From positions 496,001 to 560,000 of the forward strand of contig NZ_CANKWO010000001.1 in the NCBI RefSeq assembly GCF_947487515.1: a DNA stretch of 64,000 bases, written 5' to 3'. The position numbers and the translations under genes were made by a program. Source of the DNA: an uncultured Litoreibacter sp. GTDB lineage: Bacteria; Pseudomonadota; Alphaproteobacteria; Rhodobacterales; Rhodobacteraceae. Below, piece by piece: positions 11,477 to 47,735 of this stretch. Position 1 is the first letter of the stretch; each line of letters opens with the position of its first letter. The notes beneath the pieces are model-generated. The model searched no databases, was not told the DNA's origin, and was given only the letters and a program-made list of their open reading frames with translations.

Positions 11477-11563
11477 TGGTGCGGTCGGAGGGACTCGAAC
11501 CCTCACTCTTGTTACAGAACAGCGACCTCAACGCTGCGCGTCTACCAATTCCGCCACGACCGC
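11477..11563 (-). tRNA. tRNA-Leu (anticodon GAG)
   Basis: An 87-base class II tRNA. Acceptor strands GCGGTCG (from 11563) and CGACCGC (11487-11481), discriminator A, encoded CCA at 11479-11477, T-loop GGTTCGAGTCC and a long variable arm. The anticodon loop reads TTGAGGT, giving GAG (plus-strand CTC at 11527-11529). Confidence 0.95.
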
Positions 11564-44178: not shown

Positions 44179-45045
44179 CTATAGCCAACCAGCTGCAAGC
44201 TGCCGCTGATGCGCGACCATAGCATTGCGCATCAAGATCGCGACGGTGACCGGACCTACCCCGCCGGGCACGGGGCTGACCCATCCCGCCACTTCCTTCA
44301 CCGCGTCCGTGTCGACGTCCCCCACGATTTTCGGGCCATCGGCGGTCTCTATCTGATTGATGCCGATGTCGATCACCGCAGCCCCGGGTTTGATCATGTC
44401 CGGACCGACAAGATGGGCTTTCCCCACGGCCACAACAACCACATCGGCTCGGCGAGAATGCATGGCGACCGAGCGCGTCATATGATGGCACACCGTCACG
44501 GTGCAGCCTTCGGCCATAAGCATCATCGCCGCAGGCTTTCCGACGATCTCCGAATGGCCGATCATCACCACTTCCAGCCCTTGCAGCGTCAGGCCGGTTT
44601 CCTTGACCAACTCGACGCTGGCGGCGGCGGTACACGGGGCAAGGGTCACGTCAGAATAGACAATATTCCCGATCGACGCGGGGTTCATTCCCTCGACGTC
44701 TTTCAGCGGATGAATGGCGGACTGCAACGAACGCACATGGATGTGCTCTGGCAACGGACGTTGCAGGATAATGCCTAGAATACTGGGGTCGTCGTTCATC
44801 GCCAAGATGCGTTGTTTGCACTCGTTTTGCGAGATGTCAGCGGGCCAGCGCAGTTGCTCGAACGGCAGACCTGCTTGCTCGGCCCCGCGCGCCTGATTGC
44901 GCACATATACGTCGGCCTCGGGCGTGTCCCCCACCAAAACAGACACCAAACGGGGCATGTCAGCGACCTTGGAGGTGTAGTCCTTCACCTCCTGGATGAT
45001 GCGCTTTTTGACAGGGAGCCCATTGATCAGCCGATTGTCTTTCAT
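44179..45045 (-). CDS. Divergent FolD-like methylene-THF dehydrogenase
   Basis: A 288-residue protein of the FolD family. The folate-binding blocks are present (DVYVRNQARGAEQAG, PLKDVEGMNP, PVPGGVGPVT) as is DIGIN. The catalytic Lys of the YVxxK motif, needed for cyclohydrolase, is Gln here, and the NADP-phosphate Arg of GRSxxVG is His (GHSEIVGKP). The start at 45045 is chosen because the frame above it does not resemble the family. It may be dehydrogenase-only or act on another one-carbon pterin. Confidence 0.8.
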   Translation of the reverse strand: MKDNRLINGLPVKKRIIQEVKDYTSKVADMPRLVSVLVGDTPEADVYVRNQARGAEQAGLPFEQLRWPADISQNECKQRILAMNDDPSILGIILQRPLPEHIHVRSLQSAIHPLKDVEGMNPASIGNIVYSDVTLAPCTAAASVELVKETGLTLQGLEVVMIGHSEIVGKPAAMMLMAEGCTVTVCHHMTRSVAMHSRRADVVVVAVGKAHLVGPDMIKPGAAVIDIGINQIETADGPKIVGDVDTDAVKEVAGWVSPVPGGVGPVTVAILMRNAMVAHQRQLAAGWL

Positions 45046-45234
45046 AATCCGTAATACCTTATATCCGTTGTGGTCACATGAAGGAGAAACGAACGGCATT
45101 TGCAAGGCCCTCGAGGCATGGATTTGACGCGGAATGCCACTAACTTTGTCGCCTATACGAAACTGCCGTCACGGCCCTGCATTTGGCCCGACGCGACGGT
45201 ATTGACCCTGATCGCACACAGGCGTATCTAAATC

Positions 45235-45292
45235 TTGTGGCGATTTGTTACCGGATTGCGGGCCACGTTAAATATGCTGCTAAAGAGGATGG
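45235..45292 (+). ncRNA. SAM-II (SAM-alpha) riboswitch upstream of metZ
   Basis: The P1 stem GTGGC (45237-45241) / GCCAC (45262-45266) encloses a loop GATTTG...CCGG..TTGC, then GTTAAA (45267-45272) and a 3' segment GCTAAAGAGG (45279-45288). This order matches the SAM-II pseudoknot riboswitch that precedes metA, metX and metZ genes of alphaproteobacteria. A terminator follows immediately, then metZ, as expected for feedback by S-adenosylmethionine. Confidence 0.9.
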
Positions 45293-45300
45293 ATAGCGTT

Positions 45301-45332
45301 GAGCCTCCCCCTTTTCCCGGTGGAGGCTTTTT
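45301..45332 (+). terminator. Attenuator terminator between the riboswitch and metZ
   Basis: AGCCTCC (45302-45308) pairs with GGAGGCT (45322-45328) and five T follow (45328-45332), 29 bases before the metZ ATG. GAGG at 45285-45288, part of the riboswitch 3' element, could pair with CCTC at 45304-45307 and act as antiterminator when SAM is absent. Confidence 0.8.
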
Positions 45333-45360
45333 ATTTGGGCGATGCCCAACAGAGGATGAC

Positions 45361-46542
45361 ATGACAAAAGACTGGTCCCCCCGCACCAAATCCGTCCACA
45401 GCGGCTCTCGCCGTTCGCAATATGGCGAAATGTCCGAGGCGATATTCCTGACCCAAGGATTCGTCTATGACACCCCCGAGCAGGCCGAGGCCCGCTTTAT
45501 CGAATCCGGCGCGGATGAGTTTATATATGCCCGCTACGGCAACCCCACCGTGCGCATGTTCGAAGACCGCATCGCGGACATGGAGGGCACCGAAGACGCC
45601 TTCGCCACCGCATCCGGAATGGCCGCCGTTAGCGGTGCGCTGATTTCCCTGTTGAAGGCTGGCGATCATGTCGTCTCTGCCAAGGCCCTCTTTGGGTCCT
45701 GCCTCTATGTTTTGGAAGAAATCTTGGGGCGGTTTGGCGTTGAGGTCACCTTCGTGGATGGGACAGACCTATCCGCATGGGAGGCCGCCGTGCGAGACGA
45801 CACCAAGGTCGTCTTCCTAGAAACCGTCTCCAATCCGACTTTGGAGGTCATTGACCTGAAAGGCGTCGCAAAAATCGCCCATGCCAAAGGGGCGACCGTT
45901 GTGGTCGACAATGTTTTTGCGACCCCTGCGTTTTCAAAGGCTGTGGATTTGGGCGCAGATGTCATCGTTTATTCCGCCACCAAGCATATCGACGGCCAAG
46001 GCCGCTGTCTGGGGGGCGTGATCTGCGGCACACAGGATTTCATTCGAAAAACGGCTGAGCCATATCTCAAACACACCGGCGGGTCTTTGTCTCCGTTCAA
46101 CGCTTGGGTCATGCTGAAGGGCTTGGAAACCATCCATCTGCGTTGCAATGCGCAGGCGGAAAGCGCCCTGTTCATCGCCCAAGCCCTCGAAGGCCACAAC
46201 AAGCTGGATCGCACGCTGTATCCATACCTTAACTCTCACCCGCAACAGTCTATTGCAAAAGAACAAATGGGCGCCGGAGGCACCGTTATCTCGCTGGACC
46301 TTCAAGGTGGCAAAGAGGCGGCATTCAAGTTCCTGAACGCGTTGGATATCATCTTGATCTCAAACAACTTGGGAGATTCCAAAAGCATCGTGACCCATCC
46401 GGCGACGACAACGCATCAGCGGCTCAGCGACGCTCAAAAAGTCGATCTGGGCATCACGGAAGGCCTTGTGCGGATCTCCGTGGGGCTGGAGGACAAGACC
46501 GATTTGCTGAATGACATCCGCACCGCCCTAGACGCGGTCTAG
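45361..46542 (+). CDS. metZ: O-succinylhomoserine sulfhydrylase
   Basis: A 393-residue PLP enzyme of the Cys/Met-metabolism family making homocysteine from O-succinylhomoserine and sulfide. The PLP lysine is in YSATKHIDGQGRCLGG near 210, and ARYGNPT near 59 is the family signature. ATG 45361 follows AGAGG; the frame is open upstream to 45235 but crosses the riboswitch and terminator. Control is transcriptional through SAM. Confidence 0.94.
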   Translation: MTKDWSPRTKSVHSGSRRSQYGEMSEAIFLTQGFVYDTPEQAEARFIESGADEFIYARYGNPTVRMFEDRIADMEGTEDAFATASGMAAVSGALISLLKAGDHVVSAKALFGSCLYVLEEILGRFGVEVTFVDGTDLSAWEAAVRDDTKVVFLETVSNPTLEVIDLKGVAKIAHAKGATVVVDNVFATPAFSKAVDLGADVIVYSATKHIDGQGRCLGGVICGTQDFIRKTAEPYLKHTGGSLSPFNAWVMLKGLETIHLRCNAQAESALFIAQALEGHNKLDRTLYPYLNSHPQQSIAKEQMGAGGTVISLDLQGGKEAAFKFLNALDIILISNNLGDSKSIVTHPATTTHQRLSDAQKVDLGITEGLVRISVGLEDKTDLLNDIRTALDAV

Positions 46543-46634: not shown

Positions 46635-47735
46635 ATGAATGTCCATACGCCTGAGCCAGACGAGCCAACCCGCGCAGAGGCCGAAGCCGCCCTTGCGGTG
46701 TTGCGCCAATGGGCGGGGAGTGCGGATCCGATTGAGGTAGCCGCGCTAGATCCGCTGGTCTCGCGCCTGATCCCCGGTGCGGAACTGGCCAATTACCCTG
46801 CCCTTGCCCGCGCTTACCCCGAAGATTTCGCCGTCGATGACGCCTATAAGGCGTCCATGCCCGACCTGCAAAATGGGCCGTCCTCGCTGATCCGCGGGTC
46901 CAAGCAGCATATCCAGCATGTTGGCATCTCTAACTTCCGCCTGCCTATCCGCCTGCGAAGCCGCGACGCCGACGATCTGACCCTTGAGACCTCCGTCACT
47001 GGCACCGTGTCCTTGGAGGCCGAGAAGAAGGGCATCAACATGTCGCGCATCATGCGCAGCTTTTATCGCCACGCCGAACAGACCTTCAGCTTTGAGGTCA
47101 TCGAAGAGACGCTGGATTCCTACAAGACCGATTTGGAAAGCTTCGATGCGCGCATCCAGATGCGGTTCTCCTTCCCCGTGAAGATTGACAGCCTTCGCTC
47201 AGGCCTCAGCGGCTACCAGTATTACGACATCGCGCTTGAGGTCGTTGACACTGCCGGCACGCGCAAGAAAATTCTGCATCTGGATTATGTCTACTCGTCC
47301 ACCTGCCCTTGCTCGCTGGAACTGTCCGAACATGCCCGCCAGTTTCGCGGCCAGCTGGCGACACCGCATTCTCAGCGCTCTGTCGCGCGGATTTCGATGG
47401 AGGTCGATAGCTCCGCAGATTGCCTGTGGTTTGAGGACGCGATTGACCTGTGCCGTGCCGCGGTGCCCACCGAGACCCAAGTCATGGTCAAACGGGAGGA
47501 CGAGCAGGCCTTTGCCGAGCTCAACGCCGCCAACCCGATCTTTGTCGAAGACGCCGCACGGTCGTTTTGCGAGCAGCTGAAAGCAGACCCGCGGATCAAG
47601 GACTTCCGCGTCGTCGCGTCCCATCAGGAAAGCCTGCACAGCCATGACGCCGTATCTGTGATGACCGAAGGGGCCACTTTTGCAGCCGACAGTTTGGACC
47701 CCAAGCTGTTCAACACCTTGTTCCATGTAGGGTGA
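46635..47735 (+). CDS. folE2: GTP cyclohydrolase FolE2 (type IB)
   Basis: A 366-residue enzyme opening GTP for folate synthesis without a strict zinc requirement. KKGINMSRIMRS and STCPCSLELSEHARQ (with the conserved Cys pair near 225-227) are FolE2 signatures. AAGGGAAGG precedes the ATG. No Zur-type box is visible upstream. The GTG start of the next gene overlaps its stop. Confidence 0.93.
   Translation: MNVHTPEPDEPTRAEAEAALAVLRQWAGSADPIEVAALDPLVSRLIPGAELANYPALARAYPEDFAVDDAYKASMPDLQNGPSSLIRGSKQHIQHVGISNFRLPIRLRSRDADDLTLETSVTGTVSLEAEKKGINMSRIMRSFYRHAEQTFSFEVIEETLDSYKTDLESFDARIQMRFSFPVKIDSLRSGLSGYQYYDIALEVVDTAGTRKKILHLDYVYSSTCPCSLELSEHARQFRGQLATPHSQRSVARISMEVDSSADCLWFEDAIDLCRAAVPTETQVMVKREDEQAFAELNAANPIFVEDAARSFCEQLKADPRIKDFRVVASHQESLHSHDAVSVMTEGATFAADSLDPKLFNTLFHVG

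Follow-up and report, generated by a model that had tools for sequence, protein, structure and literature searches.

The window analysed here, a stretch of 64,000 nucleotides from an uncultured Litoreibacter sp. (contig NZ_CANKWO010000001.1), contains the methionine biosynthesis gene metZ, which is preceded by a SAM-II riboswitch and has a FolD-like and a FolE2 gene as its neighbours (Table 1). The original prediction had named the gene metZ, and TIGR01325 indeed scores it above the cut-off of that model. Among the 80 top matches out of 583 confirmed metZ relatives, the closest ones with a name are from Litoreibacter (89% protein identity). The frame of metZ is open through 45235-45360, and an in-frame AUG is found directly 3' of the GAGG with which the aptamer ends. 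An open reading frame of 435 aa that starts at TTG 45235 was rejected as a chance extension of the metZ frame into its leader: only 5 of the 20 leaders of the genus have no stop in this frame between GAGG and ATG.

Table 1. Features of the metZ locus, with positions in the window.
Feature	Position	Strand	Basis and remarks
FolD-like gene	44179-45045		upstream of and divergent from metZ; best NCBIfam line under its own cut-off
Likely promoter	45202-45230	+	sequence; -35 TTGACC 45202-45207, 17-nt spacer, -10-like TATCTA 45225-45230
Compact SAM-II aptamer	45237-45288	+	within the Rfam match 45227-45304
P1 stem GUGGC:GCCAC with loop	45237-45241:45262-45266	+	5 pairs; cmscan alignment
GATTTG	45242-45247	+	P1 loop
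Strand 1, UUACCGG	45248-45254	+	5' strand of the P2 pseudoknot, in the P1 loop
CCGG	45251-45254	+	P1 loop
TTGC	45256-45259	+	P1 loop
GTTAAA linker	45267-45272	+	
Strand 2, GCTAAAGAGG (GCUAAAGAGG)	45279-45288	+	forms the 3' side of the P2 pseudoknot and contributes AAGAGG to the proposed antiterminator; cmscan alignment
Proposed antiterminator	45283-45315	+	AAGAGG 45283-45288:CCUUUU 45310-45315, GGA 45291-45293:UCC 45306-45308, GC 45296-45297:GC 45303-45304
Intrinsic terminator hairpin and U tract	45301-45332	+	stem 45301-45308:45322-45329 plus 45309-45310:45319-45320; TTTTT 45328-45332
Strand 4, CCGGUGG	45317-45323	+	complementary to strand 1 over 7 bases (2 G-U); duplex -8.6 kcal/mol
Hairpin UUGGGC-GAU-GCCCAA	45335-45349	+	between terminator and ribosome-binding site
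Likely Shine-Dalgarno of metZ, AGAGGA	45351-45356	+	sequence; 4 nt before ATG
metZ, O-succinylhomoserine sulfhydrylase	45361-46542	+	393 aa; TIGR01325 544.8 bits, cut-off 510.05
FolE2 gene	46635-47735		downstream of metZ; above cut-off

The covariance search confirmed that the leader of metZ holds a SAM-II riboswitch. Using cmscan on the window, we found a match to RF00521 (SAM_alpha, SAM-II) at 45227-45304 on the forward strand, with 57.4 bits (gathering score 36, E 2.9e-10) and with the whole model covered (positions 1-79 of 79). The score was again 57.4 bits when the organism's own genome was searched, and this genome, which is 99.83% complete, contains a single SAM-II match at E <= 0.001. 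The identity of the element had been correctly predicted from the sequence, and its named parts (P1, GATTTG/CCGG/TTGC, GTTAAA and GCTAAAGAGG) are found where they had been placed. Between 45150 and 45420 the only other Rfam match at E <= 1 is Phe_leader (19 bits versus 55, E 0.69), which we read as a chance match. SAM-V is absent from 45150-45420 at the same E value, so no second SAM aptamer lies over the ribosome-binding site. The sole other Rfam matches above gathering score in the window are two tRNA genes, 2465-2551 and 11480-11563 (-).

In the 20 Litoreibacter leaders, P1 and its loop are invariant, save one GATTTG base in one leader, and strand 2 is invariant in all of them. The P2 helix can form: UUGC at 45256-45259 and CC at 45251-45252 face the GC and the GG of 45279-45288. 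The base 3' of GAGG is an A in 16 of the 20 leaders, and because of this A the ACC:GGU pairing seen in many relatives is one pair shorter in these 16. Judging by its sequence, this copy would be expected to bind SAM. Calculated without pseudoknots, the 151-nt leader folds with no exceptional stability (z -1.42; 16 of 200 shuffles reach it); P1 is missing from such folds of the whole leader, which means that the minimum-energy fold is no guide to the bound state.

Transcription from the likely promoter at 45202-45230 would begin just 5' of P1. For comparison, 217 unique leaders were obtained from 249 loci by leaving out 15 without the core pattern (6 of them without SAM-II) and 17 duplicates; the 149 family loci behind this set (30 + 119) were drawn from the best matches listed, so that this pool leans to good scorers. 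TTGAC is found at most 60 nt 5' of GATTTG in 206 of the 217, compared with about 7 expected from shuffles, and in 202 of those 206 leaders it lies 40-50 nt before GATTTG. The -10 element TATCTA agrees with the consensus in 3 of its 6 bases. A simple consensus scan, which allows loops of 3-8 and excludes bulges, listed neither the promoter at 45202-45230 nor the terminator at 45301-45332; we attribute this to its loop and bulge rules and to the weak -10.

An intrinsic terminator sits between the aptamer and the start codon of metZ, in agreement with the hairpin and five T predicted before the ATG at 45361. The hairpin (45301-45329) consists of 8 pairs, a bulged U, 2 inner pairs and an 8-nt loop, with an energy of -16.0 kcal/mol, and the region 45289-45332 folds with -16.3 kcal/mol, a value that 19 of 1000 dinucleotide shuffles reach. 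The 5' arm GCCTCC is present in all 20 Litoreibacter leaders. The loop is CCCTTTTCCCGGT in 14 of them and a small variant of it in the other 6; all 20 loops start with CCC(C)TT and end with CCGGT. The spacer between aptamer and terminator, on the other hand, varies freely in sequence within the genus and has a length of 12-26 nt. Such invariance of GCCTCC, CCC(C)TT and CCGGT beside a variable spacer would be expected of a loop that has to pair with strands of the aptamer: pairing with these invariant strands would require a constant loop, whereas termination by itself does not.

A second hairpin (45335-45349) follows the terminator. Its equivalent has z < 0 in 20 of 20 genus leaders and z < -1 in 19, and the stems contain compensated changes between these leaders (e.g. 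TTGGGC/GCCCAA, TTGGGG/CCCCAA and CGGGC/GCCCG). Outside the genus, the hairpin at the equivalent place has a mean z of -1.24, with 30 of 47 leaders below -1 (five leaders that were too short were left out, together with L091 and L100). One guess is that this hairpin insulates the ribosome-binding site.

A SAM-II riboswitch with a terminator before metZ is an ordinary arrangement in the relatives, and the locus described here is one more copy of it, in Litoreibacter. At E <= 0.001, SAM-II is present in 20 of the 21 genomes of the genus, our own included (the only genome lacking it is 79% complete); sampling found it in 329 of 395 genomes at family level and in 155 of 289 at class level. Among the metZ loci, that is, the best 80 of the 583 confirmed relatives, 74 have SAM_alpha just upstream; the six without it are L074, L078, L095, L108, L110 and L113, with only 112 nt of upstream sequence for L110. 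Applying a hairpin-plus-U-run rule, we found a terminator after SAM-II in 60 of these 74 leaders and none in the other 14. The same division in the larger set of unique leaders gives 180 with a terminator and 37 without. Four metZ leaders from metagenome assemblies (L117, L118, L120 and L121) have SAM-II and no U-rich terminator by the rule; they carry a segment GCCCCGATCAGGG...GGGCCGG after the aptamer and may act another way. Outside the family, we considered the 30 top-scoring loci of the class SAM-II search, whatever the downstream gene: a terminator was found by rule in 19, while 8 have none and 3 lack the pattern. In most of these 19, the strands of P2 visibly recur in the terminator, as with CCGACC and GGUCGG. 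A purine-G mismatch and a G-U are retained in the terminator stem of many leaders with CCCCCG(A/G)CGC..GCGGTGGGGG, L029 and L061 among them, which looks as if these letters were kept for another pairing.

Most structural work on SAM-II used a translational example, and the original prediction set the order of elements at metZ against a translational norm. This contrast does not hold for this group, given the terminators in 60 of the 74 metZ leaders and the SAM-II terminators already described or predicted in papers from 2005, 2007 and 2022. SAM-II elements with intrinsic terminators in alphaproteobacteria are found in Corbino 2005 (PMC1273637) and in Barrick and Breaker 2007 (PMC2258182). In the parts of these two papers that we draw on, the systems have the same aptamer, a promoter just before P1, a terminator between P2 and the ORF and a methionine biosynthesis gene, and there is no difference of kind to the present locus. 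Leyn 2014 (PMC4239095) reports that 26 of 30 genomes from Rhizobiales and Rhodobacterales have SAM_alpha before a sulfhydrylase gene; this gene is labelled metY and may be the orthologue of the present metZ, and the parts of the paper used here give no antiterminator for these leaders. A close parallel in gene and element is the metZ leader of S. meliloti (Scheuer 2022, PMC9373788, consulted in part), which shares with ours metZ, SAM-II and a predicted SAM-dependent termination. Under high SAM its short RNA RZ goes up and the metZ mRNA goes down; at the same time the metZ promoter is less active and the mRNA is stabilised, and the drop in promoter activity means that the fall in mRNA is not due to attenuation alone. 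The short RNA product is that of S. meliloti, where RNA was measured, whereas the leader described here is known from its sequence. In the portion consulted of the work on the Pelagibacter tandem SAM-II/SAM-V element (PMC11508383), SAM-II is also linked to transcription control; unlike that system, the region 45150-45420 contains no SAM-V at Rfam E <= 1. The relevant part of PMC3723493 merely cites the SAM-II structure. What is added here are the predicted competing strands.

We consider it likely that the SAM-II riboswitch controls metZ by transcription attenuation, working as an OFF switch. Attenuation had been suggested from the order of the elements, and both homology and the layout of the leader are in favour of it. 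When SAM is scarce, the 3' strand of the aptamer, AAAGAGG, would be free, and this strand would pair with the nascent loop and the 5' arm (AAGAGG:CCUUUU and GGA:UCC) before the polymerase has moved beyond the terminator loop. In addition, the P1 loop, which is then free as well, may bind the beginning of the terminator's 3' arm (UUACCGG:CCGGUGG). The terminator would then be delayed and metZ would be read. When SAM is bound, AAAGAGG would be locked in the P2 pseudoknot, the terminator would form in the absence of a competitor and transcription would halt about 30 nt before the ATG of metZ. The completed terminator exceeds the antiterminator in stability, so that attenuation would have to be a kinetic contest in which the two halves of the terminator are held apart until the polymerase has passed. 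We infer premature termination, the direction of control and which of the pairings antiterminates; for the functional steps, we rely on homology and on the S. meliloti work.

The proposed antiterminator (AAGAGG:CCUUUU, GGA:UCC and GC:GC) is, with -8.8 kcal/mol, the best fold of the segment cut from AAAGAGG to the terminator loop. It covers 5 of the 6 letters of the 5' arm GCCUCC plus part of the loop, and its other side is the aptamer strand that would be held in the P2 pseudoknot on SAM binding. With the segment again cut to start at AAAGAGG, all 20 Litoreibacter leaders are predicted to adopt the same layout: AAAGAGG and the loop form 6-7 pairs in 16 of them and 4 pairs in L002, L004, L013 and L018, and the second helix, to the 5' arm of the terminator, is predicted in all 20 despite the variation of the spacer. 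At -8.8 kcal/mol the antiterminator is much weaker than the terminator (-16.0 kcal/mol), and it would therefore work only kinetically or with a second contact. A longer nascent leader, starting at 45230, has a minimum fold that lacks it. Before the 3' arm is included, this minimum (-22.4 kcal/mol) has neither P1 nor AAGAGG:CCUUUU, and the region of the P1 3' strand is paired with the 5' arm of the terminator. The latter fold, a predicted competitor of the proposed antiterminator, was set aside because it uses spacer letters that the relatives do not keep.

We were not able to find any covariation in the two main antiterminator helices in the 20 leaders of the genus, because both helices hardly vary there. 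What speaks for the proposed pairing of strand 2 with the terminator loop (2:3) is its conservation and its repeated prediction, and covariation is not part of this. Compared with shuffled terminator halves, the antiterminator of the window is no better than controls (z 0.01). We also compared own and shuffled terminator halves in 59 leaders, that is, in the window and in 58 of the 60 leaders with a terminator (L091 and L100, where a wrong or over-long hairpin had been chosen, were left out). In 54 of the 59, the own half gives the pre-terminator segment a better fold than shuffled halves do (mean z -1.4), and halves swapped in from other leaders are as good in 24% of cases on average versus 50% expected, in rows that are not independent since related leaders were counted separately. 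In leaders of the Ruegeria/Leisingera/Shimia type, the predicted partner of GGUCA is a UGACC or UGGCC of the terminator loop, with GAAAGG:CCUUUC or a variant of it inside. This GGUCA antiterminator is predicted in the Roseobacter-type leaders L071, L075, L076, L088, L102, L104, L119 and L127, and the Roseobacter-type terminator loop CGCUUG(A/G)CC is kept across genera. Among the SAM-II papers listed, none was found to describe the antiterminator pairings; they may stand in supplementary figures.

The crystallised SAM-II element of a marine metX is translational and hides the ribosome-binding GAGG. The metZ aptamer also ends in GAGG and an in-frame AUG follows at once, so one could think of translational control, with a ribosome-binding GAGG hidden inside the aptamer. 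Furthermore, the distance of 72 nt from GAGG to the ATG of metZ is much like the layout of S. meliloti metA, for which translational control of this kind is proposed and for which the consulted part of PMC9373788 reports that the riboswitch GAGG is needed though translation starts 74 nt downstream, beyond the terminator. However, the spacing between GAGG and AUG is zero, and only 5 of the 20 genus leaders have an open frame over the whole distance to the metZ ATG. The good Shine-Dalgarno AGAGGA, 4 nt before the ATG of metZ, lies outside the aptamer, the terminator and all switching strands, and terminators follow SAM-II in 60 of 74 metZ leaders; we hold control of translation through the aptamer to be quite improbable. 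Slightly less probable again is that the terminator is constitutive and that the main product of the leader is a short SAM-II sRNA, acting in trans via the CCUCCCCC (anti-Shine-Dalgarno-like) hairpin. While this would agree with the near invariance of the loop and the 5' arm across the 20 Litoreibacter leaders, the same invariance is explicable by pairing with the aptamer strands, and the loops are quite different in other genera. A short RNA, RZ, does arise from the same place in S. meliloti, and trans functions of it are speculated on in the part of PMC9373788 used here.

The competing pair given in the original prediction, GAGG (45285-45288) with CCTC (45304-45307), would also lead to SAM-dependent attenuation. 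The four pairs exist, as predicted, and every one of the 20 genus leaders contains the two stretches. On the other hand, a comparison of the alternative folds, as had been proposed, gives only -3.2 kcal/mol for GAGG:CCTC alone, against -8.8 kcal/mol for AAGAGG:CCUUUU with its inner helices and -16.0 kcal/mol for the terminator, and the conserved loop is left unexplained. We regard this pair as the least likely of the three alternatives, and the exact competitor named earlier is probably wrong. The earlier interpretation is thus partly supported, being right in outline and wrong in the contrast that it drew.

As to a second contact in the attenuation that we favour, complementarity between strand 1 and strand 4 is common outside the Roseobacter type. 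It could be scored in 51 of 58 leaders (the other 7 are without the P2 pattern of our script), with a mean z of -0.97 and 26 of the 51 below -1. In an exchange test, strand 1 was swapped among leaders and the rank of the native strand was compared with a null value of 0.5, ignoring the relatedness of the leaders. The mean native rank was 0.33 for 108 unique rows not of the Roseobacter type (67 of 108 beat the mean, Wilcoxon p 8e-7); with each distinct strand-1 sequence counted once, the difference was not significant (16 of 26, p 0.33). The 39 rows of the Roseobacter type went in the opposite direction, with a mean rank of 0.585 and 5 of 39 beating the mean (Wilcoxon p 2e-5 against). Leaving out the genus and the Roseobacter type, we counted the base before CCGG and the base facing it: A/U 68, A/C 7, G/U 1 and G/C 6 (Fisher p 3e-5, relatedness again ignored), with A/G 11, A/A 2, T/U 5 and T/G 2, mostly non-pairing, outside the 2x2 table.

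If strand 1 resembles strand 3 and strand 2 resembles strand 4, complementarity of strands 1 and 4 would follow without any contact between them, and it may simply come from the likeness between the terminator and P2. A 1:4 pairing as a second antiterminating contact is possible, with partial support from covariation. It is also conceivable, though we consider it doubtful, that the terminator is a sequence copy of the P2 helix of the aptamer, and that the loss of SAM would lead to a two-for-two exchange from 1:2 and 3:4 to 2:3 and 1:4. If this is true, the strand-exchange antiterminator would be pseudoknotted, with each arm of the terminator held by one half of the ligand-binding pseudoknot.

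In summary, the locus extends a family that is already well described by one species, and its value is modest and mechanistic. The comparison of the 217 leaders suggests which letters of the terminator are kept for antitermination, and the SAM-II expression platform with terminators becomes testable by compensatory mutation.
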